Position numbers and translations under genes: made by a program | Notes under the pieces: model-generated | Seen by the model: only the letters and a program-made list of their open reading frames with translations | What the model was told of the DNA's origin: nothing | Database searches by the model: none | From: Phyllobacterium sp. OV277 | GTDB taxonomy: Bacteria > Pseudomonadota > Alphaproteobacteria > Rhizobiales > Rhizobiaceae | DNA: 64,000 nucleotides | NCBI RefSeq assembly: GCF_900104355.1 | Contig: NZ_FNIY01000012.1 | Location: 1 to 64,000 of the forward strand | Direction of reading: 5' to 3' | Shown here: piece after piece, positions 39,828 to 56,134 of the stretch | Position numbering within the stretch: the stretch's first letter is position 1 | Layout: each line of letters opens with the position of its first letter

Positions 39828-40772
39828 ATGTTGAAGTTCGCGCTCACCCGAGTTGGTACGGCTATCCCGACATTGTTTATTGTGGCGGTGTCCGTTTTCT
39901 TTCTCATCCGGCTTATTCCCGGCGATCCAGCTGCATTGATGCTGGGTGATCTTGCCGACCCGGCCAGTCTTGCAGATTTGCGAGCGCGGTTGGGGCTTGA
40001 TCAAAGCATTCCGACCCAGTTTGCAATCTGGCTCGGCAATATATTGCACGGAGATTTTGGCCGGTCGATCACCAACCAGCAGGAGGTTTTGCCTCTTATA
40101 CTGGCGCGATTGCGCATCAGTGCGGAGATCGTTCTGATTGCTGTATTTCTTGCCAGCATTGTTGCCGTTCCGGCAGGCATGATCGCCGCATGGCGACAGA
40201 ACAGCCTCACAGATGTGGCTTTGGTGGGCGGGGCAACGCTTCTGCTCTCCATCCCGGCATTCTGGATGGGCCTGCTTCTGCTGTTGTTCTTCGGATTGAA
40301 ACTGGGCTGGCTGCCTGTGCTCGGCTACGTCTCCATGTCCCAGAATCTTCCACAAGGATTGCTCTATATCATCCTGCCCGTGGTGACACTCTTCCTGCAC
40401 GAGATCGGTGTTATTTTGCGCATGGCGCGTGCTTCGACACTTGAGGTCATGCAGCTTGAATATATTACCCATGCCCGAGCCAAGGGCCTCTCGGAATCCG
40501 CTGTCCTCTGGCGTCATGCCTTCAAGAACGCTTTTGGTCCGACATGGACCCTTATTGGTATTGTTCTGGGAAACCTGCTTGGCGGCATTGCCGTGGTTGA
40601 AACGGTATTCACGATCCCCGGTCTCGGGCGGCTGCTTGTCGATGCAATTTTCGCCCGGGACTATCCGGTGATCCAAGGCTGTCTCCTGCTCATCGCAACT
40701 GTTTACGTGCTGGTAAACCTCGTTGTCGATCTGCTCTATCCCATATTCGATCCGAGGGTGACCGCAGAATGA
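39828..40772 (+). CDS. Dipeptide-type ABC permease 1
   Basis: 314 residues, DppB-like. The start (KFALTRVGTAIPTLFIVAVS) is the usual first helix, and the EAA loop carries ARAKGLSESAVLWRHAFKNA. Six membrane helices are predicted. GAGG precedes the ATG. The second permease overlaps by 4 bases. Confidence 0.9.
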   Translation: MLKFALTRVGTAIPTLFIVAVSVFFLIRLIPGDPAALMLGDLADPASLADLRARLGLDQSIPTQFAIWLGNILHGDFGRSITNQQEVLPLILARLRISAEIVLIAVFLASIVAVPAGMIAAWRQNSLTDVALVGGATLLLSIPAFWMGLLLLLFFGLKLGWLPVLGYVSMSQNLPQGLLYIILPVVTLFLHEIGVILRMARASTLEVMQLEYITHARAKGLSESAVLWRHAFKNAFGPTWTLIGIVLGNLLGGIAVVETVFTIPGLGRLLVDAIFARDYPVIQGCLLLIATVYVLVNLVVDLLYPIFDPRVTAE

Positions 40773-41581
40773 GAAATCTTGCTCCCAATGCGCTTCTGGG
40801 CAGCGCCCTTGTCGGAACGCTTCTGACCGGAGCATTTATGGGTGCGGTCTGGACGCCCTACGATCCGCTTGGTCTGAATTTCAAACTCAGACTTGCTGGG
40901 CCAAGTGCAGCCCATTGGTTGGGGACGGATGAGTTTGGCCGTGATGTGCTCAGCCGGTTGCTCGCCGGTGCTGCAACCAGCTTCTGGATAAGCCTGCTGA
41001 CCGTTGTTCTGGCGGTGACCGCTGGCACATTGATCGGAATGCTGACGGGCTATTTTCGTGGCTGGGTCGATCGTATCATCATGACATTCAACGATGCTTT
41101 GCTCGCCTTTCCCGGTATCCTATTGGCGCTTGGATTGCTCGCGGTGGTGGGCGCCAATAAATACGGCATCATTCTGGCGCTTGGATTAGCCTATACACCG
41201 ACAGTTGTTCGTATTGTCCGTGGCAATGTCCTGTCGTTGCGGGAACGGGAATTCATCGAAGCCTCCCGCGTCATGGGTAATTCGAATGCCTACACCATGT
41301 TCCGACATATTCTGCCCAACTGTATCGCGCCGCTTACGGTTCTTGCGACGTCCATGTTCGGTTGGGTGCTGCTTGCTGAAAGCGCGTTGAGCTTCCTCGG
41401 TCTTGGTGTACCGCCTCCCGCGCCGACATGGGGCAATATGCTGGCCAGTGGGCGGCCATTCATTTCCCAGGCAGTCTGGCTTGCCATTTTCCCCGGCCTT
41501 TGCATTTCGCTGACCCTCCTCGGGATCAATCTGCTTGGCGACGCACTTCGCGACAGACTCGATCCAAGGATGAGGGGATGA
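40769..41581 (+). CDS. Dipeptide-type ABC permease 2
   Basis: 270 residues, DppC-like, with HWLGTDEFGRDVLSRLLAGA after the first helix and the EAA loop EASRVMGNSNAYTMFRHILP. It overlaps the first permease (ATGA) and the ATPase gene downstream (ATGA), so the three are translationally coupled. Confidence 0.9.
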   Translation: MRNLAPNALLGSALVGTLLTGAFMGAVWTPYDPLGLNFKLRLAGPSAAHWLGTDEFGRDVLSRLLAGAATSFWISLLTVVLAVTAGTLIGMLTGYFRGWVDRIIMTFNDALLAFPGILLALGLLAVVGANKYGIILALGLAYTPTVVRIVRGNVLSLREREFIEASRVMGNSNAYTMFRHILPNCIAPLTVLATSMFGWVLLAESALSFLGLGVPPPAPTWGNMLASGRPFISQAVWLAIFPGLCISLTLLGINLLGDALRDRLDPRMRG

Positions 41582-43254
41582 TGATGCAGGAAAAGTCACC
41601 GCTTCTTGACGTGCGCGGACTCTCTTTAGAAGTAACGCGAACAGGCATCAAAATCCTCAAAGCCATCAGCTTCAATGTAAAGGCGGGTGAGATCGTTGGA
41701 ATAGTCGGAGAATCCGGATCCGGAAAATCCATGGCTGCCCGTGCGATCATTGCCCTTAACCCACCCGCGGTACAGCGCACCGCCGGAACGATAAGTTTCG
41801 AAGGACGGGATACGGGCTCCATGCACAAGCGCGATTTACAGGCTTTGCGTGGTGCGCGGGTCGGCATGGTTTTCCAGGAGCCGATGACTTCGCTCAATCC
41901 TTCAATGACGATCGGCCGTCAGCTGGAAGAGGGGTTGCGGTTGCACCGGCGGCTGACAAGCCGCGAGCGCCATCGGCTGATTGTCGAGATGCTTGCCCGC
42001 GTTGGCCTGAATGATCCGCAAACGGCGCTTGCAGCCATGCCGCACCATTTCTCCGGTGGCATGCGCCAACGTATCATGCTGGCAGCGGTGATGCTGCTCA
42101 AGCCCGCATTACTCATTGCTGATGAGCCAACGACTGCGCTGGATGCGGTGGTCCAGCGTGATGTGCTCGAGTTGATGGTTGATTTGACGCGGGAGAACAA
42201 CACGGCTGTCCTAATGATCAGCCATGATCTGGCAATGGTGGCCAAGTACTCGGACCGTGTCGTGGTAATGTCGCAAGGCGAAATCGTCGAACAGGGCGAT
42301 ACGAAAGATCTGCTTCGCGCGCCGCAGCATCCCTATACCCGCAAATTGCTGTCTGCCTTGCCACACCGCATACCGGCGCGGTCCATGGAGGTTTCACCTG
42401 TTGCACGGATAAATGTCGACAATCTCGTTGTGGATTTTGCGGCTCGCCGAAGTCTCCTGCGCAAAGGGCATCCAAAACGCGCGCTCAACGGGGTTACTTT
42501 GAATGTCATGCCGGGAGAGGTCGTCGCTGTTGTTGGCGGATCGGGTTCTGGCAAGACGACATTGGGGCGGACAATTGCCGGGCTTATCAAGCCAAGCGGC
42601 GGGGAAATTCTGTTCAATGGGAAGTCCATCCAAACGTCGACGAGCGACTATGCTGACTACAGGCTCAACTGCCAGATGGTGTTCCAGGACCCCTATTCGT
42701 CACTCGATCCGCGCATGACAATTGGCAGTCTGGTGGGAGAGGCACTGCGCCGCTCGACTGATCTAACCGCCAGAGAGAGGAACTCGCGCGTTGCAGAAGT
42801 TCTTGATGAAGTCGGGTTGTCTGCAGAGTTTGCTTCCCGTTTCCCGCACCAGCTCTCCGGTGGCCAGCGTCAGCGCGTTGCGATCGCCCGCGCGGTTGTG
42901 AGGCGGCCGCAATTCGTGATTGCCGATGAGCCGGTGTCTGCGCTGGATGTAACCGTTCGTGCGCAGGTGCTCAAGCTGTTTGCCGAGTTGCAACGAAAGC
43001 ATGGGTTCTCGTGCCTGTTCATCAGCCATGATCTGGCGGTTGTCGAGCAGATCGCCGATCGGGTTATTGTCATGAACAATGGCATGATCGTGGAGCAAGG
43101 GAGCCGCGATGCCATCTTCGACAATCCGCAGCACGATTACACCCGCAAACTGCTTCAGGCTATTCCAGCTCTTTTTGGAACAGAAAATGGCGGCGTGGAA
43201 CTGGGATGGCGTTTTGACGAAGTCGGCAGGAAATCAGCCCATGGCGGGAACTGA
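41578..43254 (+). CDS. Fused dipeptide-type ABC ATPase (two nucleotide-binding domains)
   Basis: 558 residues with two complete ATPase domains in one chain, equal to DppD plus DppF. First domain: Walker A GESGSGKS, signature FSGGMRQRIMLA, Walker [13 protein letters not shown]. Second: Walker A GGSGSGKTT, signature LSGGQRQRVAIARAV, Walker B FVIADEPVSALD. Each has its own C-terminal oligopeptide-transporter extension (HPYTRKLLSALP and HDYTRKLLQAIP). It starts at the overlap with the permease stop; two further ATGs at 41581 and 41584 are alternatives. The second operon at 54-60 kb keeps these domains as separate genes. Confidence 0.9.
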   Translation: MMMQEKSPLLDVRGLSLEVTRTGIKILKAISFNVKAGEIVGIVGESGSGKSMAARAIIALNPPAVQRTAGTISFEGRDTGSMHKRDLQALRGARVGMVFQEPMTSLNPSMTIGRQLEEGLRLHRRLTSRERHRLIVEMLARVGLNDPQTALAAMPHHFSGGMRQRIMLAAVMLLKPALLIADEPTTALDAVVQRDVLELMVDLTRENNTAVLMISHDLAMVAKYSDRVVVMSQGEIVEQGDTKDLLRAPQHPYTRKLLSALPHRIPARSMEVSPVARINVDNLVVDFAARRSLLRKGHPKRALNGVTLNVMPGEVVAVVGGSGSGKTTLGRTIAGLIKPSGGEILFNGKSIQTSTSDYADYRLNCQMVFQDPYSSLDPRMTIGSLVGEALRRSTDLTARERNSRVAEVLDEVGLSAEFASRFPHQLSGGQRQRVAIARAVVRRPQFVIADEPVSALDVTVRAQVLKLFAELQRKHGFSCLFISHDLAVVEQIADRVIVMNNGMIVEQGSRDAIFDNPQHDYTRKLLQAIPALFGTENGGVELGWRFDEVGRKSAHGGN

Positions 43255-45830: not shown

Positions 45831-46295
45831 TTATGCGGGCAGGACCAGATCGGCAATCATTTCGCCGTCCTCGTCCAGCCCTTCTTCTATAAAGCCAGCG
45901 GCGCGATAGAGCTGCCGCGCGCCTTCATTCTCGGGAGCATAGCAAATCGAAACATGCCGCACATGGCCGAGGCTTCGAATTTCCGCCAGCGCTTCTCTCA
46001 GGGCAGCTTTGCCATAGCCTCTGCCCTGATGTGCACGATCGATCATGAAACGATATATCCGTGCCTCATCATCGTCTTCGGGCGCTTCGTACATCAGGAA
46101 ACCGATCACGCGATTTTCCGTTATCACAACGCGTGGTCGTGCATCTTCGTCAAGCGCAGCCTCGTCCAGCGAATCCGAATTAGTTGCAACGAAACTCAAC
46201 TGGTCGGGACCAAGCGTCAGAGACGTAACCAAGGCACGATTGGCCTCGGTCACAGGCTCTAGATGGACTTCCGCGGTTTTCTGCTGGTCTGCCAA
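45831..46295 (-). CDS. GNAT family N-acetyltransferase, linked to the Pls-type synthetase
   Basis: 154 residues. The acetyl-CoA-binding motif is clear (DRAHQGRGYGKAAL), followed by YAPENEGARQLYRAAGF, the usual C-terminal beta-bulge region. The fold and motif order resemble spermidine/amine acetyltransferases of the family, so an amine substrate is plausible. It starts with TTG at 46295 with GGAG 8 bases upstream. It begins 60 bases after the stop of the 1379-residue synthetase, on the same strand, so both are likely co-transcribed; it could acetylate the amino groups of that enzyme's product (inference). Confidence 0.82.
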   Translation of the reverse strand: MADQQKTAEVHLEPVTEANRALVTSLTLGPDQLSFVATNSDSLDEAALDEDARPRVVITENRVIGFLMYEAPEDDDEARIYRFMIDRAHQGRGYGKAALREALAEIRSLGHVRHVSICYAPENEGARQLYRAAGFIEEGLDEDGEMIADLVLPA

Positions 46296-46355
46296 GGTGC
46301 AATCTCCGATCCAATTTCTCGGTTCATTGATCTACATACACGACCAGCTTTCCAG

Positions 46356-49300
46356 TCAAGCGGATGTCTTGGAGCCGCTATTAAAAACTGGAGTGACGAA
46401 CCGATGCAGCTTGGCCGGGTTGCCCCGCCATATGGAGTTTGGTTCCAGTACTTCACCCTTCATTACGAATGAGTCGACGTCGACCATCGATCCCTCGCCC
46501 ATTACGACACCGTAGTGAACAAAAGCGGCAGGCCCCAGCGTACAACCCTTGCCGATGCGGATGAAGTCGGACTTGAACGCACCTTCTTCCAGCGAATGGG
46601 CCTGAATGACGCAACCTTCATTGAGAGTGGTGTCATCGCCTATTTCCACCAGTGAGCGCTCGGTCAGGTTGCTGCCGCCATCATAAACCCTCTTGCCGAC
46701 CTTGACGCCCAACAGACGCAAGATCATTGGCCGGAATGGAGTGCCTCCAAACAGGCGGGTAATGGGCGAATCCGACAGCTTCCAATGGCGTTCATGGTGC
46801 CAGAAAGGAGCATCATAGATCGTCGTCATCTGTGGTTTCAGCTTGCCAAAACCAAGACTTGCCCGCTCAAGCAGAACATAGAAAGGAATGGTGATCGCCG
46901 ACGTCAGGAGTACGGCGACGAAAAGCGCGACCTCTGCCCATTCGGTATAATAGTTCAGCGCCCGATCCCAAATAACCAATGTGGCAAATAGCATGACCCA
47001 TTGAGCCGCCAGAAACAGAAGTGCAGTCACTGCATTGTAGCGGTTCTTGAATATCAGGCGACTACGGCGTTCATCCTCACTGATGCCAGCGATAAGTTCC
47101 TTGTCCCGGTTCACCATACGCGGGATTTCGAAGGAAGGTGAGCCCAGAAGGCCCACATTTTCGCGGATCGGTCCGTCAATGGGAATCATCACTTTGGTGC
47201 CGAGCAGGCAGTTGTCGCCGGTTCGACCGTCTGACGGATAATAGATATTGTTGCCCAGATAGTTGCGCTCGCCAATCTTTGTATGTTCAAGCCGGAATGC
47301 TGAGGCGGATTTGTGCATGTTGATCATAAACAGGCCGTCCGACACCATGGTTTGGCTGCCTATCTCGCACAGGAGAGGATTTTCGTGTTGTTGATTGCTG
47401 CCAAAATTGGAACCTGTTTGCACAACCTTGTTGAGGTTCCAGCCAATGGCATGGATGTAGTGGACGATCGCGGAGCTGTCGCCGAACAGGATATTAAGGA
47501 CGCGGGAATTACTACTGAACTCGACAACAGTCTGCAGCCAGTAACGGAAGCCGTAAAGGGTGTAGGCCCGGCCAGATTTCAAAACCACACTGAACAAGCG
47601 AGGCACCACAAGTGCCGAGAACAGGGCTATCGCGATATATCCAAATAGCGTGACGGTGGTCCCGATAGCAACAATACCTATTGTCTCCTGATAATCGTCG
47701 CTGACATTCTGCCAATAGCTGTGGAACAGGAGCGGTACAGGTGTAACAAAAGCAAACAGGCCCACAAGTTGAACCGCTTCATAAAGGACGCGCCTGACAT
47801 TGGAGGAATTCACATTGCGGACTTTGCAATATTCTGCCGTCGTTGGCACGGCTGGTGATCCATGCCAGTGCGCGCCATCAGGAATGTTCTGTCCCTGCTG
47901 AAGCGAGGATGCATGGCCAAGCTGGGCGCGGTCGCCCATTTTGGTGTTGATGTCGAGCGTCGATCCCACACCGACGAACGCATCGTGGCCGATGGTCAGC
48001 GGGCCCGTATGGATATAGCCGGCTTGAGCGCGATAGCCGAGTATCATCGATTCCTTGCGCAGGATCGTGTTGTCGCCAATGGATATGAGATCCGTGCAAA
48101 CGGGCACGGTGCGGCATTCAATGACAGTGTTTCGCCCGAGCTTGGCTCCAAGGAGACGCAGATAGATGCTGTAAAGGGGGCTGCCGCGGAACAGAACAAC
48201 AGGCGCCGTGCGGATCAACGTTTGAACGACCCAAAACCGGTAGTAACGCAAGCCCCAGATGGGAAACGCTTCCGGCTTCCACCGGCCCACGAGGGCCCAT
48301 TTCGCGATGATTGCAACGCCCGACATTCCGAAGAAGACGCCCCCTGAGAGCAGCACGCAACGCAGGTACAGTTGCAGCGGTTCGTCGAGTTTGTCGTAGG
48401 TCCAGTTGAGCCCACGATTGAATGCCCACAAGCCTATATAACTATAGAGCCCGTAAAATAGCAGCTGCGCCATTCCGCAGATCCAATAGGCAATGTTCGA
48501 CGCCCGGTGCGTAAGAACGCGCTCATTGGTGGCAGTCGTCATTTCCTCCGGGATACGCAGATGTTGCGCGAGGCGCGCCACCGTCGGGTAGAGGTAGATA
48601 TCCCGCATGGACGCCGTCGCCCATTCTTTTCTGGTACGCACACGCGCACAGAAGCGGGCCATGAGCAGAGAATTGGCACCAAGATCGTCGAAGAAGTTGT
48701 CCTCCATGGACACCTCATCGAATTTTAGCACTTCGGCCAGCGCCACACCCAGAAAACGTTCGTCGTCATTGCCGGGTGGTACGATCGTTCGCTCGGCCGA
48801 AAGTCGAACGCTTGTTGGTTTCGGAAGCTGACGCGTATCTGTCTTGTTGGCAACTGTCATCGGAATTGCTGACAGTTCTTCCAGATAGGAAGGCACCATA
48901 TAATCGGGCAAGCGCCGTTTCAGCTCCCGGGCAATGTCAGCACGGGAGATTGTTGGCAACCCCGTCTTGGGTGCATAATAAGCCACGAGTTCCACGCGAC
49001 CCGGTTCAATTTCCCAGGTTGTGACAGCCGCCTGTGCAATCTCTGGCTGATCCAGCAATACCGCTTCGATCTCTCCGAGTTCGATGCGATAGCCGCGAAT
49101 TTTTACCTGCGTGTCTATACGGCCGTGATATTCAATCTCTTGGCCGTCATTGATCCGGCCAAGGTCGCCCGTCCGATAAATGCGCTTCGATGGGTTGTTC
49201 GGCAGGCCAATGAAATCGGGGATGAACTTCTGTTCGGTCAGATCAGGCCTGTTGAGATAGCCCACGGCAAGTCCGATGCCGGCAATGCAGATTTCACCCA

Positions 49301-50495
49301 ATTCTCCGGGCTCGGCAAGTGCCGGTATCGTCGGATCAAGGACGACAATAGAGTAGGTGGGTAGTGGAGCGCCGATCGTCACGGGCCTATCCGGCGTGAG
49401 CATACCCATTGTTGCTGTAACAGTGGCTTCAGTCGGGCCATAGGTGTTGAGGATTTGGCGGCCGGGCTTCGACCAGCGCACCACCAGGTTGTGGGAGCAC
49501 GCCTCACCGCCCACCAGTAGCGCCCGCAAAGTCGGTACGTCGCTCTCTATGGAGGAAAGCAGTGTCGGGCTGCAGGCCATGCAGGTAACGTCATTCGTCC
49601 GAAGAAAATCGGCAAGCTCCTCGCCCACCAGTGTCAGCGGGCCCGGTGCAGGCACCACCGTTGCACCGGCGACAAACGGCACCCAGATTTCTTCCGCCGA
49701 GAAATCGAAGGCAATGGTCATGCCCTGGTAAACGCGGTCTTCTGGCCGGTACCCATAGGATGCCGCAGCGACCCGCACAAAATTGCAAATACTCTGATGC
49801 GTGATGACCACGCCCTTGGGTCTGCCAGTGGTTCCTGAAGTGTAGAGAATGTAGCAGACATCGTCGGATGTGGAGGTCACAGCCGTTGATGGCAATGGCT
49901 TGTCAGACATTGCCGTGATTTCCGCGGCAACGCTATCGATCAGTACGTTGGGTACAGGCAGCTGTTCGACCCGGGACGAATAGGCCGCGATGGAAACAAG
50001 CAGCCCAACACCGGCGTCTTCGATGATGAGCTTCATGCGCTCTTCAGGAAAAGCCGTAGCAAGCGGAACGAAGGCTGCTCCCGCCTTCATCACAGCGAGC
50101 AAGGTAACGTAGGTCTCGGCGGATCGGTCGAGAAGGAGGCCCACCCGGTCGCCCGGTCGCACACCCCGGTCAACGAGGATGCGGGCAAACTGGTTGGCGC
50201 GTTTGTTCAGTTCACGATACGACCAGACACGGCCCTCAGAGATCACGGCCGGTGACAAATCATATGCCACAGCGAGCTGTTCGAAGAACTTGTCAAGGCG
50301 CTCGCCCGGCCGTCCTTCATGCGCAAAATCGGCACCCGTCAGAATCTGAGGGTGTGCGGCAATTCCGGAAGCGGGGGTGTTTTTCACAGTCGCATCAGCA
50401 CTTCCGAAACCAGCCGTTGTTCCGGACTGATCACTTGCATTCTTCGCCGCGCCCATATTGAGTCCGGCACCGTCAACCCCGTGTTCCATTTCCAT
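46356..50495 (-). CDS. Pls/PosA-type membrane nonribosomal peptide synthetase
   Basis: 1379 residues. Domain order: an adenylation domain (about 70-560; motifs YILYTSGTTGRPKG, NTYGPTEATVT, YRTGDLGR, and Lys551 at the A10 motif), a carrier domain (about 575-645; phosphopantetheine site Ser609 in LGANSLLMARF), six predicted membrane helices (about 667-693, 707-735, 902-928, 938-970, 1153-1176, 1187-1208), and three left-handed beta-helix-like acyltransferase segments between and after them (about 785-885, 1045-1125, 1270-1362). This is the plan of epsilon-poly-L-lysine synthetase (Pls) and its PosA relatives, which activate one amino acid and chain it on the membrane. By hand alignment to GrsA the pocket reads D-F-E-A-L-G-T-V-T-K; the acidic E268 suggests a basic amino acid (uncertain). 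The GNAT gene follows in the same direction. Confidence 0.88.
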   Translation of the reverse strand: MEMEHGVDGAGLNMGAAKNASDQSGTTAGFGSADATVKNTPASGIAAHPQILTGADFAHEGRPGERLDKFFEQLAVAYDLSPAVISEGRVWSYRELNKRANQFARILVDRGVRPGDRVGLLLDRSAETYVTLLAVMKAGAAFVPLATAFPEERMKLIIEDAGVGLLVSIAAYSSRVEQLPVPNVLIDSVAAEITAMSDKPLPSTAVTSTSDDVCYILYTSGTTGRPKGVVITHQSICNFVRVAAASYGYRPEDRVYQGMTIAFDFSAEEIWVPFVAGATVVPAPGPLTLVGEELADFLRTNDVTCMACSPTLLSSIESDVPTLRALLVGGEACSHNLVVRWSKPGRQILNTYGPTEATVTATMGMLTPDRPVTIGAPLPTYSIVVLDPTIPALAEPGELGEICIAGIGLAVGYLNRPDLTEQKFIPDFIGLPNNPSKRIYRTGDLGRINDGQEIEYHGRIDTQVKIRGYRIELGEIEAVLLDQPEIAQAAVTTWEIEPGRVELVAYYAPKTGLPTISRADIARELKRRLPDYMVPSYLEELSAIPMTVANKTDTRQLPKPTSVRLSAERTIVPPGNDDERFLGVALAEVLKFDEVSMEDNFFDDLGANSLLMARFCARVRTRKEWATASMRDIYLYPTVARLAQHLRIPEEMTTATNERVLTHRASNIAYWICGMAQLLFYGLYSYIGLWAFNRGLNWTYDKLDEPLQLYLRCVLLSGGVFFGMSGVAIIAKWALVGRWKPEAFPIWGLRYYRFWVVQTLIRTAPVVLFRGSPLYSIYLRLLGAKLGRNTVIECRTVPVCTDLISIGDNTILRKESMILGYRAQAGYIHTGPLTIGHDAFVGVGSTLDINTKMGDRAQLGHASSLQQGQNIPDGAHWHGSPAVPTTAEYCKVRNVNSSNVRRVLYEAVQLVGLFAFVTPVPLLFHSYWQNVSDDYQETIGIVAIGTTVTLFGYIAIALFSALVVPRLFSVVLKSGRAYTLYGFRYWLQTVVEFSSNSRVLNILFGDSSAIVHYIHAIGWNLNKVVQTGSNFGSNQQHENPLLCEIGSQTMVSDGLFMINMHKSASAFRLEHTKIGERNYLGNNIYYPSDGRTGDNCLLGTKVMIPIDGPIRENVGLLGSPSFEIPRMVNRDKELIAGISEDERRSRLIFKNRYNAVTALLFLAAQWVMLFATLVIWDRALNYYTEWAEVALFVAVLLTSAITIPFYVLLERASLGFGKLKPQMTTIYDAPFWHHERHWKLSDSPITRLFGGTPFRPMILRLLGVKVGKRVYDGGSNLTERSLVEIGDDTTLNEGCVIQAHSLEEGAFKSDFIRIGKGCTLGPAAFVHYGVVMGEGSMVDVDSFVMKGEVLEPNSIWRGNPAKLHRFVTPVFNSGSKTSA

Positions 50496-50893
50496 ACTTT
50501 CTAGTCATAGCCCAAGCATCGCCGCGCATATGTTCGCGCAGGGCATCATGCCATCTCTTCACAAAGCATTGTCTATCGGCTGGCTATGCGCCGTGGCTGA
50601 AATGACCTCTCCGTCATGGATGCGGAATACCCCAAGCTTCCATAAAAGAAAAGCCCGGAACTCCAGGTGGTCAATACTATAAACTCCAATTGCACTACAT
50701 GAAGGCTGAATGATATTACATAATAACCATGATTCAGAACACTGAGCGCTTGGTCCAGTCGCCAATCAGGCCATCAGGGATATCCACTGAGGGATGTCAG
50801 GTTAGCTCTTCTGTGACGGGAAAGGTCTTTTGGTTGATGGCCTTATCTGGCAATGTGCTTTAATCAATAGACTTTGGATTGGGAGGAAGGTCG
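50496..50893. promoter_or_regulatory. Divergent intergenic region, synthetase / AraC regulator
   Basis: About 400 bases with no convincing gene between two divergent genes. The stretch around 50650-50740 is AT-rich and is the likely promoter zone. No dyad stands out. The AraC-type protein on the right could act here on the synthetase. Confidence 0.4.
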
Positions 50894-51781
50894 ATGCGAC
50901 CGGATCTTGAAGTCGTGCAGATGAATCGCGGCGAAGCATTCAGGACTTTGTCACACGGCTACCCCTATCATACAGTCAGATGGCACTTCCATCCTCAATA
51001 TGAAATCCATCTGATAACAGAGACAACGGGTTACTATTTCGTCGGGGATTTTATCGGTGAATTTGAACCGGGCAACCTGGTGTTGACGGGACCGAACTTG
51101 CCACACAACTGGATAAGCAATATTCCAGACGATCAAATTATCGACACGCGTGATTTAGTTGTTCAATTTACTCAGAAGTTTATGGAAAACACGATAGAAT
51201 TGATGCCGGAGCTATCTGTTTTCAAGGTATTGTTGGATGAAAGTCCGCGCGGCCTGTTGTTTGATACTGAAACTGGAGTCGCTGTTGGGCCCTTGCTCCT
51301 GGAACTGCTCGATGCAAGTGGAGCACGCCGTATTGCGCAATTTATGAGCATTATTGACAAATTGATCAATGCTCGGGAGCGAAGGCAATTGGCAAGTCAT
51401 GCGTACATGCCAGATCCTTCCGGCTATATGTCCAGCTCAATGAACAAGGTGCTGTCCTATATCTCTGAAAATCTGACGACGTTTGGCAAAGAAATTAGCC
51501 TCGCGGCTATTGCTGAGCAGAGTGCCAGTGCGTTCTCGATGGCTTTTCGCCGGCACACAGGCATGACTCCGGTGCATTATGTAAATCGCTTGAGGATTAA
51601 TCTGGCTTGCCAGCTATTGACGAGCGAGGAGCACATGACGGTGACGGACATTTGCTACGAAGTTGGCTTCAATAACCTTTCGAATTTTAATCGCCAGTTT
51701 CTGACGCTGAAGGGCATGCCACCTTCTCGGTTCCGTTCATTGCACGCGGTGCAATTTGCAAGAAAGACGGCCAACCAATAA
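50894..51781 (+). CDS. AraC family transcriptional regulator with cupin sensor domain
   Basis: 295 residues. The N-terminal ~130 residues are cupin-like (WHFHPQYEIHLI, FVGDFIGEFEPGNLVLTGPN). The C-terminal ~100 residues hold the two AraC helix-turn-helices (ISLAAIAEQSASAFSMAFRR and VTDICYEVGFNNLSNFNRQF). The ATG at 50894 has GGGAGGAAGG upstream. It is divergent from the Pls-type synthetase, so it is a candidate regulator of that gene; sugar- or amine-sensing is possible but not shown. Confidence 0.85.
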   Translation: MRPDLEVVQMNRGEAFRTLSHGYPYHTVRWHFHPQYEIHLITETTGYYFVGDFIGEFEPGNLVLTGPNLPHNWISNIPDDQIIDTRDLVVQFTQKFMENTIELMPELSVFKVLLDESPRGLLFDTETGVAVGPLLLELLDASGARRIAQFMSIIDKLINARERRQLASHAYMPDPSGYMSSSMNKVLSYISENLTTFGKEISLAAIAEQSASAFSMAFRRHTGMTPVHYVNRLRINLACQLLTSEEHMTVTDICYEVGFNNLSNFNRQFLTLKGMPPSRFRSLHAVQFARKTANQ

Positions 51782-54188: not shown

Positions 54189-55160
54189 TCAGGCGAGGTG
54201 GCAGGCAACGTGATGACCGTTATCGAGCGTCCGCAGTTCCGGCACCTCAATCCTGCAACGGTCGACGGCCAATGGACAACGGGTGTGAAAGCGGCATCCG
54301 GCCGGCGGTGCGGCGGGGCTTGGCAACTCACCTTGCAGCACAACACGGTTGCGGCCCGCGTCTGGGTCAGCCACGGGGATGGCTGACAGAAGGGCCTTGG
54401 TATAGGGATGGCGTGGATGGTCGAAAAGTGCGTTGCGGCTCGCCGTCTCAACGATCACGCCGAGATACATGACTGCGATTTCATCGCAGAGATGCTCGAC
54501 AACAGCCAGATCGTGCGAGATGAACAGGAAGGTCAGTCCCTGTTGCTCCTTGAGGTCGGAAAACAGATTGATGATCTGGGCCTGGATCGAAACGTCAAGC
54601 GCCGAGACGGGTTCGTCGGCTATGATCAATTCGGGCTTCAATGCCAATGCTCGGGCGATACCTATACGCTGGCGTTGACCGCCGGAGAATTCATGCGGGT
54701 AGCGTGCGTATTGGTAGGGCGCAAGGCCGCAGATGCGCATTACCTCCAGCACTGTCTCGCGTAACTCTGCTTTACGAACCAGACCATGCGCCAGAAGTGC
54801 TTCGCCGATCGCATCGCCAGCCCGCACCCGTGGATTGAGCGATCCGTAAGGGTCCTGGAACACCAGCTGCATTTTCGGTCGCAGTGCCGCCAGCGCCTTG
54901 CGGCCGCCAGCCTGAATGTCTTTGCCATCAAAGCGTACGGTGCCGGTTGTCGGCTTGTAGAGCCCCAGCATGGCGCGACCGAGTGTTGACTTGCCACTAC
55001 CGGATTCGCCGACAAGTCCGAAAGTGGTACCGCGGCGGATACGAATGTTCACTCCATCGACGGCCCTGACATGACCTGAGACCTGACCGAACAGCCCGTC
55101 ACGGATCGGGAAATGGATCTTGAGGTTCTCGACTTCAAGCAACGCGGAAACGTCTGTCAT
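54189..55160 (-). CDS. Dipeptide-type ABC ATPase 2 (DppF-like)
   Basis: 323 residues. Walker A GESGSGKST, signature FSGGQRQRIGIARAL, Walker B LIIADEPVSALD, and the C-terminal oligopeptide extension with HPYTKALLSAIP and CRFHTRCPLA, a cysteine-containing motif found in this subfamily and possibly linked to an iron-sulfur site. Starts at 55160, overlapping the previous stop (ATGA); a longer in-frame extension upstream lies inside the neighbouring gene and is rejected. Last gene of the operon. Confidence 0.9.
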   Translation of the reverse strand: MTDVSALLEVENLKIHFPIRDGLFGQVSGHVRAVDGVNIRIRRGTTFGLVGESGSGKSTLGRAMLGLYKPTTGTVRFDGKDIQAGGRKALAALRPKMQLVFQDPYGSLNPRVRAGDAIGEALLAHGLVRKAELRETVLEVMRICGLAPYQYARYPHEFSGGQRQRIGIARALALKPELIIADEPVSALDVSIQAQIINLFSDLKEQQGLTFLFISHDLAVVEHLCDEIAVMYLGVIVETASRNALFDHPRHPYTKALLSAIPVADPDAGRNRVVLQGELPSPAAPPAGCRFHTRCPLAVDRCRIEVPELRTLDNGHHVACHLA

Positions 55161-56134
55161 ATCGCCCCCGACTGAGCCAGGAAACATGCGGCACGATGTG
55201 GTGCGTCCGCTAGGCCCAGCGATGGAATGCCTGAGCGGCAGATATCGACCGCAGCAAAGCAGCGTTCGGCAAAAGCACAATAGGCAGGGAGCCGCGCGGG
55301 ACTGGGTACTTGACCCGGAATGGAAACCAGACGGCGCAACCGTTGGCCGGGGACTGGCCGCGAGGCCAAGAGGCCGCGCGTGTAGGGATGCTTGGGGTGT
55401 CGCAGGACGTCACGAACCGTGCCAGTTTCAACCACCCGGCCAGCATACATCACGATAACCCGGTCGGCCAGTTCTGCTACCAGCCCAAGGTCATGGGTGA
55501 TGAGCATCAGAGCTGTGCCTTCATCCTGTTTCAGCCGATTGAGCAGGTCGAGGATTTGAGCCTGAATAGTAACATCGAGCGCTGTCGTTGGTTCGTCGGC
55601 GATCAGCAATTTTGGTTTACAGCTGAGGGCGATGGCAATCATCACGCGCTGCAACATGCCGCCGGAAAGTTGGTGCGGATAGCCTTCGACAATCCGCTCG
55701 GGCCGAGCAATGCCGACACGCGTCAAGAGAGCAATTGCCTCTGCCCATGCCGCTTTTGGTGGCATCTTGCGATGCTCGATCAACGGTTCAACGATCTGCT
55801 CTCCGATAGTCAGGACTGGATTGAGCGAACTCATTGGTTCCTGAAAAATCATGGCAATCTCGTTGCCGCGCATCGTCCGCATGGCTTCCGGTTTCAGGGT
55901 GAGAAGATCCTTGCCGCGATATAAGATCTGACCGCCAGCGATATATCCGGCCGGACGGGAGACCAGACCCATCAGCGACAGTGCTGTCACGCTCTTGCCG
56001 CAGCCGGATTCACCAACCACGCCAACAGTTTCGCCCTCGCCAATGCTGAAGCTGACATCCTGCACCGCGCGGGCGATGCCCTCATCGGTTTTAAAATGGG
56101 TTGACAGGTTCTGGAATTCGACAAGCGGGGGCAT
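55157..56134 (-). CDS. Dipeptide-type ABC ATPase 1 (DppD-like)
   Basis: 325 residues. Walker A GESGCGKS, signature [15 protein letters not shown], Walker [13 protein letters not shown], and a C-terminal part with [12 protein letters not shown] and [10 protein letters not shown]. The signature reads GGMLQ where GGMRQ is the more common form. Follows the permease by 7 bases and overlaps the next ATPase. Confidence 0.9.

Follow-up and report, generated by a model that had tools for sequence, protein, structure and literature searches.

A Pls/PosA-family synthetase gene with a recurrently adjoining GNAT acetyltransferase gene in Phyllobacterium and related bacteria

A single gene for a Pls/PosA-family synthetase is followed on the same strand by a gene for a GNAT N-acetyltransferase in the window, the whole 64-kb stretch of Phyllobacterium sp. 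OV277 DNA analysed here, and this arrangement recurs across genera. The anatomy of the synthetase, the residues of its pocket, the conserved gene order and the kinship of the GNAT to polyamine acetyltransferases lead us to favour, with modest confidence, a reading in which the two enzymes together produce a short cationic isopeptide polymer and modify it, the GNAT acetylating its amines.

The synthetase is encoded at 46356–50495 on the minus strand (1379 aa, ATG start). It had been predicted to combine an adenylation (A) domain, a carrier with Ser609 and a terminal domain in one polypeptide, and the open reading frame together with Pfam and NCBIfam matches confirmed this plan. The A domain spans residues 81–550 (48846–50255, minus strand), with Pfam AMP-binding over residues 81–414 (3.7e-80) and AMP-binding_C over 475–550. 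It is followed by the carrier (PP-binding, residues 585–646; 48558–48743, minus strand), in which Ser609, assigned by position (codon 48671–48669), sits within LGANSLL. The membrane-embedded terminal domain (residues 672–1361; 46413–48482, minus strand) matches TIGR02353 at 889.8 bits, about twice the cut-off of 423.1, in keeping with the predicted family membership. A domain, carrier serine and terminal domain are all intact. Only one gene in the window's genome passes the TIGR02353 cut-off. A 1343-aa A-domain protein on contig 23 was considered as a second synthetase and rejected: it does not pass TIGR02353 and by eye belongs to a probable siderophore cluster (L009, 983–13531) with a TonB receptor, a MATE-type exporter, the 1343-aa NRPS, a monooxygenase and a phosphopantetheinyl transferase.

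We modelled residues 672–1379 with AlphaFold2 on a 13-row alignment. The best model had a mean pLDDT of 70.4 and a pTM of 0.77; the other four had pLDDT values of 52.5 to 58.9. In this moderate-confidence model long helices form three pairs and beta-helix segments are present, as had been predicted, with the middle beta-helix poorly modelled (mostly pLDDT <50). A hydropathy scan detected five of the six membrane helices at the threshold applied. Top Foldseek matches of the model include hexapeptide (left-handed beta-helix) acetyltransferases (best E 7.5e-06, TMq 0.15), and Pfam Hexapep was matched in the synthetase with no single stretch passing alone. The same kind of terminal-domain model appears in the available text of the PosA paper (PMC10522769), so the anatomy of the synthetase is not new.

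The closest record found is plasmid pT1293b of Phyllobacterium sp. T1293, from a Melilotus root nodule, whose synthetase is 98.3% identical in the terminal domain and 97.9% identical along its full length. Gene order there is that of the window (regulator, synthetase, GNAT, SRPBCC gene, cyclase), which bears out the predicted alphaproteobacterial host. RefSeq also annotates the synthetase–GNAT pair in T1293 and already names the synthetase gene a Pls/PosA family non-ribosomal peptide synthetase. Among genome contigs the nearest was Phyllobacterium myrsinacearum (91%). A class-level search with the terminal domain (E ≤ 1e-60) found 2 of 385 genomes, the window's own and one at 29% identity. An AraC-type regulator gene (50879–51781) stands divergent to the synthetase in the window, as it does in T1293. 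Dipeptide/oligopeptide-type ABC transporter genes flank the synthetase on both sides (39828–43254 and 54189–55280); they are present in T1293 too and are no fixed neighbour among relatives. When the neighbours in 37 of the best 80 of 541 loci were clustered, setting aside ORFs overlying the synthetase, GNAT and phosphopantetheinyl transferase, what emerged beyond these three genes was limited to a scattered cluster of ABC transporters and some small groups.

The GNAT gene (45831–46295, minus strand; 154 aa, TTG start; Acetyltransf_1, 7.7e-15) lies 60 bases past the synthetase stop, exactly the spacing of the original prediction. A scan of named genome contigs gave 541 relatives, of which the best 80 were taken as named loci; the sample therefore leans to close kin. 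In 63 of these best 80 a GNAT comes right after the synthetase, counting those with at least 44% identity whose aligned start falls between −15 and +154 bases relative to the end of the synthetase. Among the 63, the alignment of L153 begins only at residue 61 and L202 is truncated where its contig stops; judged by aligned position, 25 begin no later than the final base of the synthetase. The two genes are presumably co-transcribed. Three of the best 80 instead have a GNAT at 27–30% identity about 1 kb further on, and 14 have none (two of them with <600 bases of DNA left). The linkage predicted to be conserved is thus kept across genera, with 17 of the best 80 and 2 of 11 close-clade loci lacking an adjacent GNAT, and the GNAT is therefore dispensable in some lineages.

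We also sampled the order (397 genomes, 71 with TIGR02353 at E ≤ 1e-60). There were 73 matches and 60 regions were examined; besides the window's own, those left out were G123, the second copy in G169, G317, G190, G139, G037, G030, G378, G042, G232, the second piece in G218, and G214. The close clade, defined as the window plus ten members at least 63% identical over the terminal domain, has the GNAT directly downstream in 9 of 11 loci; in the other two, L052 and L053, a phosphopantetheinyl transferase takes its place. Across the 397 genomes the GNAT (E ≤ 1e-15) occurred in 14, and 12 of these hold TIGR02353 (hypergeometric 3e-8, uncorrected for relatedness). Nine of the 12 have adjacent pairs, G344 and G391 have the GNAT about 3.5 kb upstream, and G232 has it on another contig. 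A chance neighbour was rejected on the basis of conserved adjacency, genome co-occurrence and the tree described below.

A same-strand phosphopantetheinyl transferase follows the synthetase in 73 of the best 80 of 541 named loci, and 60 of these 80 have both it and the GNAT. The complete order of synthetase, GNAT and phosphopantetheinyl transferase is annotated in an Aureimonas AU20 plasmid. We found no phosphopantetheinyl transferase or remnant of one in the 64-kb window (tblastn best E 0.33), and the Phyllobacterium sp. 628 locus (L139) is likewise without it. Two such genes lie elsewhere in the window's genome, and the transferase of the siderophore cluster L009 could additionally serve the window synthetase. 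Four EctB-linked loci (L059, L064, L065 and L076) carry a transferase of another subtype directly past the synthetase, recognized by Pfam ACPS in L059, L065 and L076 and judged by eye in L064.

Both the acetyl-CoA motif and the GNAT fold are present in the GNAT: its structural model has a pLDDT of 91, and Q90, G93 and G95 are invariant in 22 aligned GNATs. The closest solved sequences are spermine/spermidine acetyltransferases (4e-15 and 7e-15), and of the 26 solved sequences that it matches at E ≤ 0.01, 18, with many near-copies among them, carry the name of a polyamine, spermidine or diamine acetyltransferase. The Foldseek list repeatedly contains SpeG-type chains and is headed by a GNAT of unstated substrate; the two chains nearest in sequence superpose poorly on the model over their whole length (rmsd 11.7, TMq 0.70). 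For the window protein, every NCBIfam match falls below cut-off. The best is RimI, a protein acetyltransferase (35.7 vs 86.4), and the others are EctA, ArsN1, L7/L12-serine acetyltransferase and AAC(6'). Among the 22 aligned GNATs, RimI matches all 22 (weakly for the window protein), EctA (diaminobutyrate acetyltransferase) matches 12 at sub-cut-off scores (best 1.2e-07), and STAT matches one, weakly. More distant kin (34–41%) occur in G202, G248, G782, G1011 and G1090, genomes with no synthetase at E ≤ 1e-40; in G1010 such a GNAT lies about 1.9 Mb away from a synthetase that carries the PosA code. The GNAT was therefore probably recruited from a broader family. Its kinship to polyamine acetyltransferases makes the originally predicted role in immunity or tailoring plausible.

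By alignment, the pocket of the A domain reads DFEALGTVTK, with Asp264, Phe265 at position 2, and Glu268. A comparison with characterised enzymes had been proposed: the domain order is that of Pls and PosA, whereas the pocket differs from both. Identity as Pls was rejected by Phe265 where Pls has Ala at position 2, according to the text consulted of PMC10522769, and identity as PosA by DFEALGTVTK vs DMEHNGTVSK. The pattern DFE(A/C)(L/M)G(T/S)(V/I)TK covers every one of the best 80 of 541 named loci; in the order sample L057 differs at the last position, and Asp and Glu occupy positions 1 and 3 in every close-clade locus read. Elsewhere the same reading recovers the published DMEHNGTVSK and forms close to DLEDIGTV(T/V/I)K and DGESISVVNK. 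The code DFEALGTVTK may already be listed in the supplementary tables of PMC10522769.

The synthetase type seen most often in the order sample (L066, L069–L073, L075, L077–L080, L082–L084, L086–L095, L098, L099, L102, L105 and L106) reads DLED(I/L/V)G(T/S)VVK, close to a code termed unassigned in the PosA paper as far as its text was available (PMC10522769). Actinobacterial plasmids tried for PDAP/PDAB codes yielded no PDAP code: a Paenarthrobacter plasmid gave DFECLSVVTK, with no annotated supply gene, two Pseudonocardia plasmids (L237 and L242) gave DLERVSTVT, and in the remainder an A domain could not be read in the same frame. In three Pseudonocardia plasmids (L237, 4622–10143; L241, 6749–10143; L242, 4886–10149) the Pls/PosA-family synthetase is immediately followed by an annotated TauD/TfdA-family dioxygenase; a hydroxylated isopeptide is conceivable there.

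We then considered genes that could supply the monomer. For poly-DAB, the window's genome has no EctB over cut-off (best 185 bits vs 552) and none in the locus; for poly-DAP, its best SbnA and SbnB scores are 216 vs 350 bits and 137 vs 327 bits. SbnB was over cut-off in none of 15 genomes, and SbnA was sought in the window's own genome only. EctB lies beside the synthetase in none of the best 80 of 541 named loci. Two of the 11 close-clade genomes, G309 and G209, have EctB away from the synthetase. In all 12 readable EctB-linked loci code position 6 is Ser and position 7 is either Ala or Val, as in the synthetases of two Skermanella plasmids. Among the loci read, EctB beside the gene thus goes with Ser-Ala/Val at positions 6–7, a genomic hint for reading the monomer.

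We built a rapid maximum-likelihood tree from 76 terminal domains and rooted it at the midpoint; it included 18 of the 80 named loci, hand-picked for diversity, and left out L060, L062 and L063, whose frames are broken or short. In this tree the clade of the window (29 rows, support 100) falls among lineages in which EctB adjoins the synthetase, and the GNAT label changes three times on the tree. EctB-like genes are found in 13 of 15 loci of the neighbouring lineages (on the other strand for L067 and L074) and in none of 35 more distant loci. The EctB model is passed by L085 (605.5 bits) and also by G344 and G232. On two Skermanella plasmids, outside the order, an annotated ectB precedes the synthetase. 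Together with the neighbouring lineages, this makes an EctB-linked synthetase the likely ancestor. With the midpoint root, the window's clade likely lost EctB and gained the GNAT, which would later have been lost in L052 and in the Rhizobium/Shinella group. Since EctB and a nearby GNAT occur together in L085 and L104, the GNAT link may be older.

Several features of the EctB-linked loci are recorded here as such. Both Skermanella plasmids carry genes for an S41-family peptidase and a porin after the ectB–synthetase pair (L239, 9651–11030; L243, 9603–11009), and a protein similar to that of this peptidase/porin locus clusters in L059, L061 and L065. The EctB-linked synthetase of L060/G240 has an in-frame TAG and reads as a broken frame.

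In the favoured mechanism, the A domain would activate a small diamino acid and load it onto Ser609. By analogy with PosA, Asp264 would hold the alpha-amine and Glu268 the side-chain amine. The membrane-embedded beta-helix domain would link monomers via their side-chain amines, as in Pls and PosA, and the GNAT would move acetyl groups from acetyl-CoA onto the amines of the product. Acetylation would most likely lower the charge of the product within the producer, as self-protection, or yield a partly acetylated product. Counting against this reading are the loci with no adjoining GNAT, RimI as the best NCBIfam match of the GNAT, the unstated substrate of the top Foldseek chain and the more distant GNAT kin in five genomes that have no synthetase. 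Such masking is plausible because, in the literature text available, there are precedents: the Pls operon contains a polymer-degrading peptidase with a postulated role in self-protection (PMC8117764), and streptothricin producers acetylate the beta-lysine amine (PMC11702664).

The GNAT could instead acetylate the monomer or the growing chain end, setting chain length or providing a capped starter, and protection would not be its purpose. Its place beside the synthetase and the weak EctA matches agree with such a role, but its nearest relatives in sequence and fold act on longer polyamines, and we consider it unlikely. That the GNAT modifies a protein (the synthetase, the carrier or a ribosomal protein), regulating synthesis or having no connection with the product, appears quite unlikely to us. 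RimI is the commonest NCBIfam match and some lineages do without the GNAT, yet the RimI score of the window protein is below cut-off and a ribosomal role would leave the linkage unexplained. We judge it very unlikely that the enzyme belongs to the family by descent but makes no free homopolymer, transferring amino acids to some other acceptor instead. Few family members have been characterised, and DFEALGTVTK is not among the codes named in the literature text consulted; the domain order, however, is the same as in enzymes shown to make free polymers (PMC10522769, in the text available).

The monomer is argued both ways. DAB or DAP is suggested by Phe at position 2, which argues for a short substrate and is found in PDAP/PDAB synthetases in the text seen of PMC10522769, and by descent from EctB-linked lineages; against it, no supply gene passes the curated cut-offs, which may miss divergent enzymes. 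Ornithine or lysine from primary metabolism is a serious possibility that falls short of probable. It would fit the loss of the adjoining EctB in the clade of the window (present in none of the best 80 of 541 named loci), the lack of EctB, SbnA and SbnB over cut-off in the own genome, and EctB lying elsewhere in the two close-clade genomes that have it. It would also fit Gly-Thr at positions 6–7 as in PosA, whose Thr304 contacts the delta-amine according to the same partial source (PMC10522769). Against it speaks the size of Phe at position 2, a place taken by Met in PosA and by Ala in Pls. Returning to polymer synthesis with acetylation of the amines, it is a possibility, though less likely than not, that Hyphomicrobiales make an N-acetylated cationic isopeptide in which a polyamine-type GNAT of the operon replaces the Pls peptidase and the monomer differs from that of the EctB-linked ancestors.

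There are few natural isopeptide homopolymers. Root-associated Alphaproteobacteria that keep synthetase, acetyltransferase and phosphopantetheinyl transferase in a conserved order would represent a branch that has been little explored, and the recurrent GNAT beside the synthetase suggests chemical masking or capping of the polymer or of its building block. The locus would make it testable how a producer tolerates its own polycation. Judged by titles and the start of abstracts, searches of mostly openly readable literature turned up no report of this GNAT linkage to a Pls/PosA synthetase or of an isopeptide synthetase from Phyllobacterium or Mesorhizobium.

Among known systems, PosA, the delta-poly-L-ornithine synthetase of Acinetobacter baumannii (PMC10522769, text seen in part), shares with the window synthetase the domain order, TIGR02353, the pocket Asp and Glu and Gly-Thr at positions 6–7; it differs in its code (DMEHNGTVSK). 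Pls, the epsilon-poly-L-lysine synthetase, has the same domain order, and the window A domain matches 7wew in the PDB set (7.6e-73). It differs in having Ala instead of Phe at position 2 and in being followed by a peptidase gene, as seen in Streptomyces sp. NBC_01454, where the window has the GNAT. Poly-DAB synthetases with dat (pldA and pddA), as given in the available text of PMC8117764 and PMC8225329, carry EctB/dat beside the gene, unlike the window. The EctB-linked loci are sister lineages in the tree and share Phe at position 2, but have EctB beside the gene and, in those read here, Ser-Ala/Val at positions 6–7. The streptothricin acetyltransferase, which acts on the beta-lysine amine (PMC11702664, partial text), has the GNAT fold in common with the window enzyme. 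SpeG and SSAT also share this fold, and the best solved matches of the window GNAT are spermine/spermidine acetyltransferases; at 29% identity to the Enterococcus enzyme, it is a putative polyamine acetyltransferase relative by sequence and fold.
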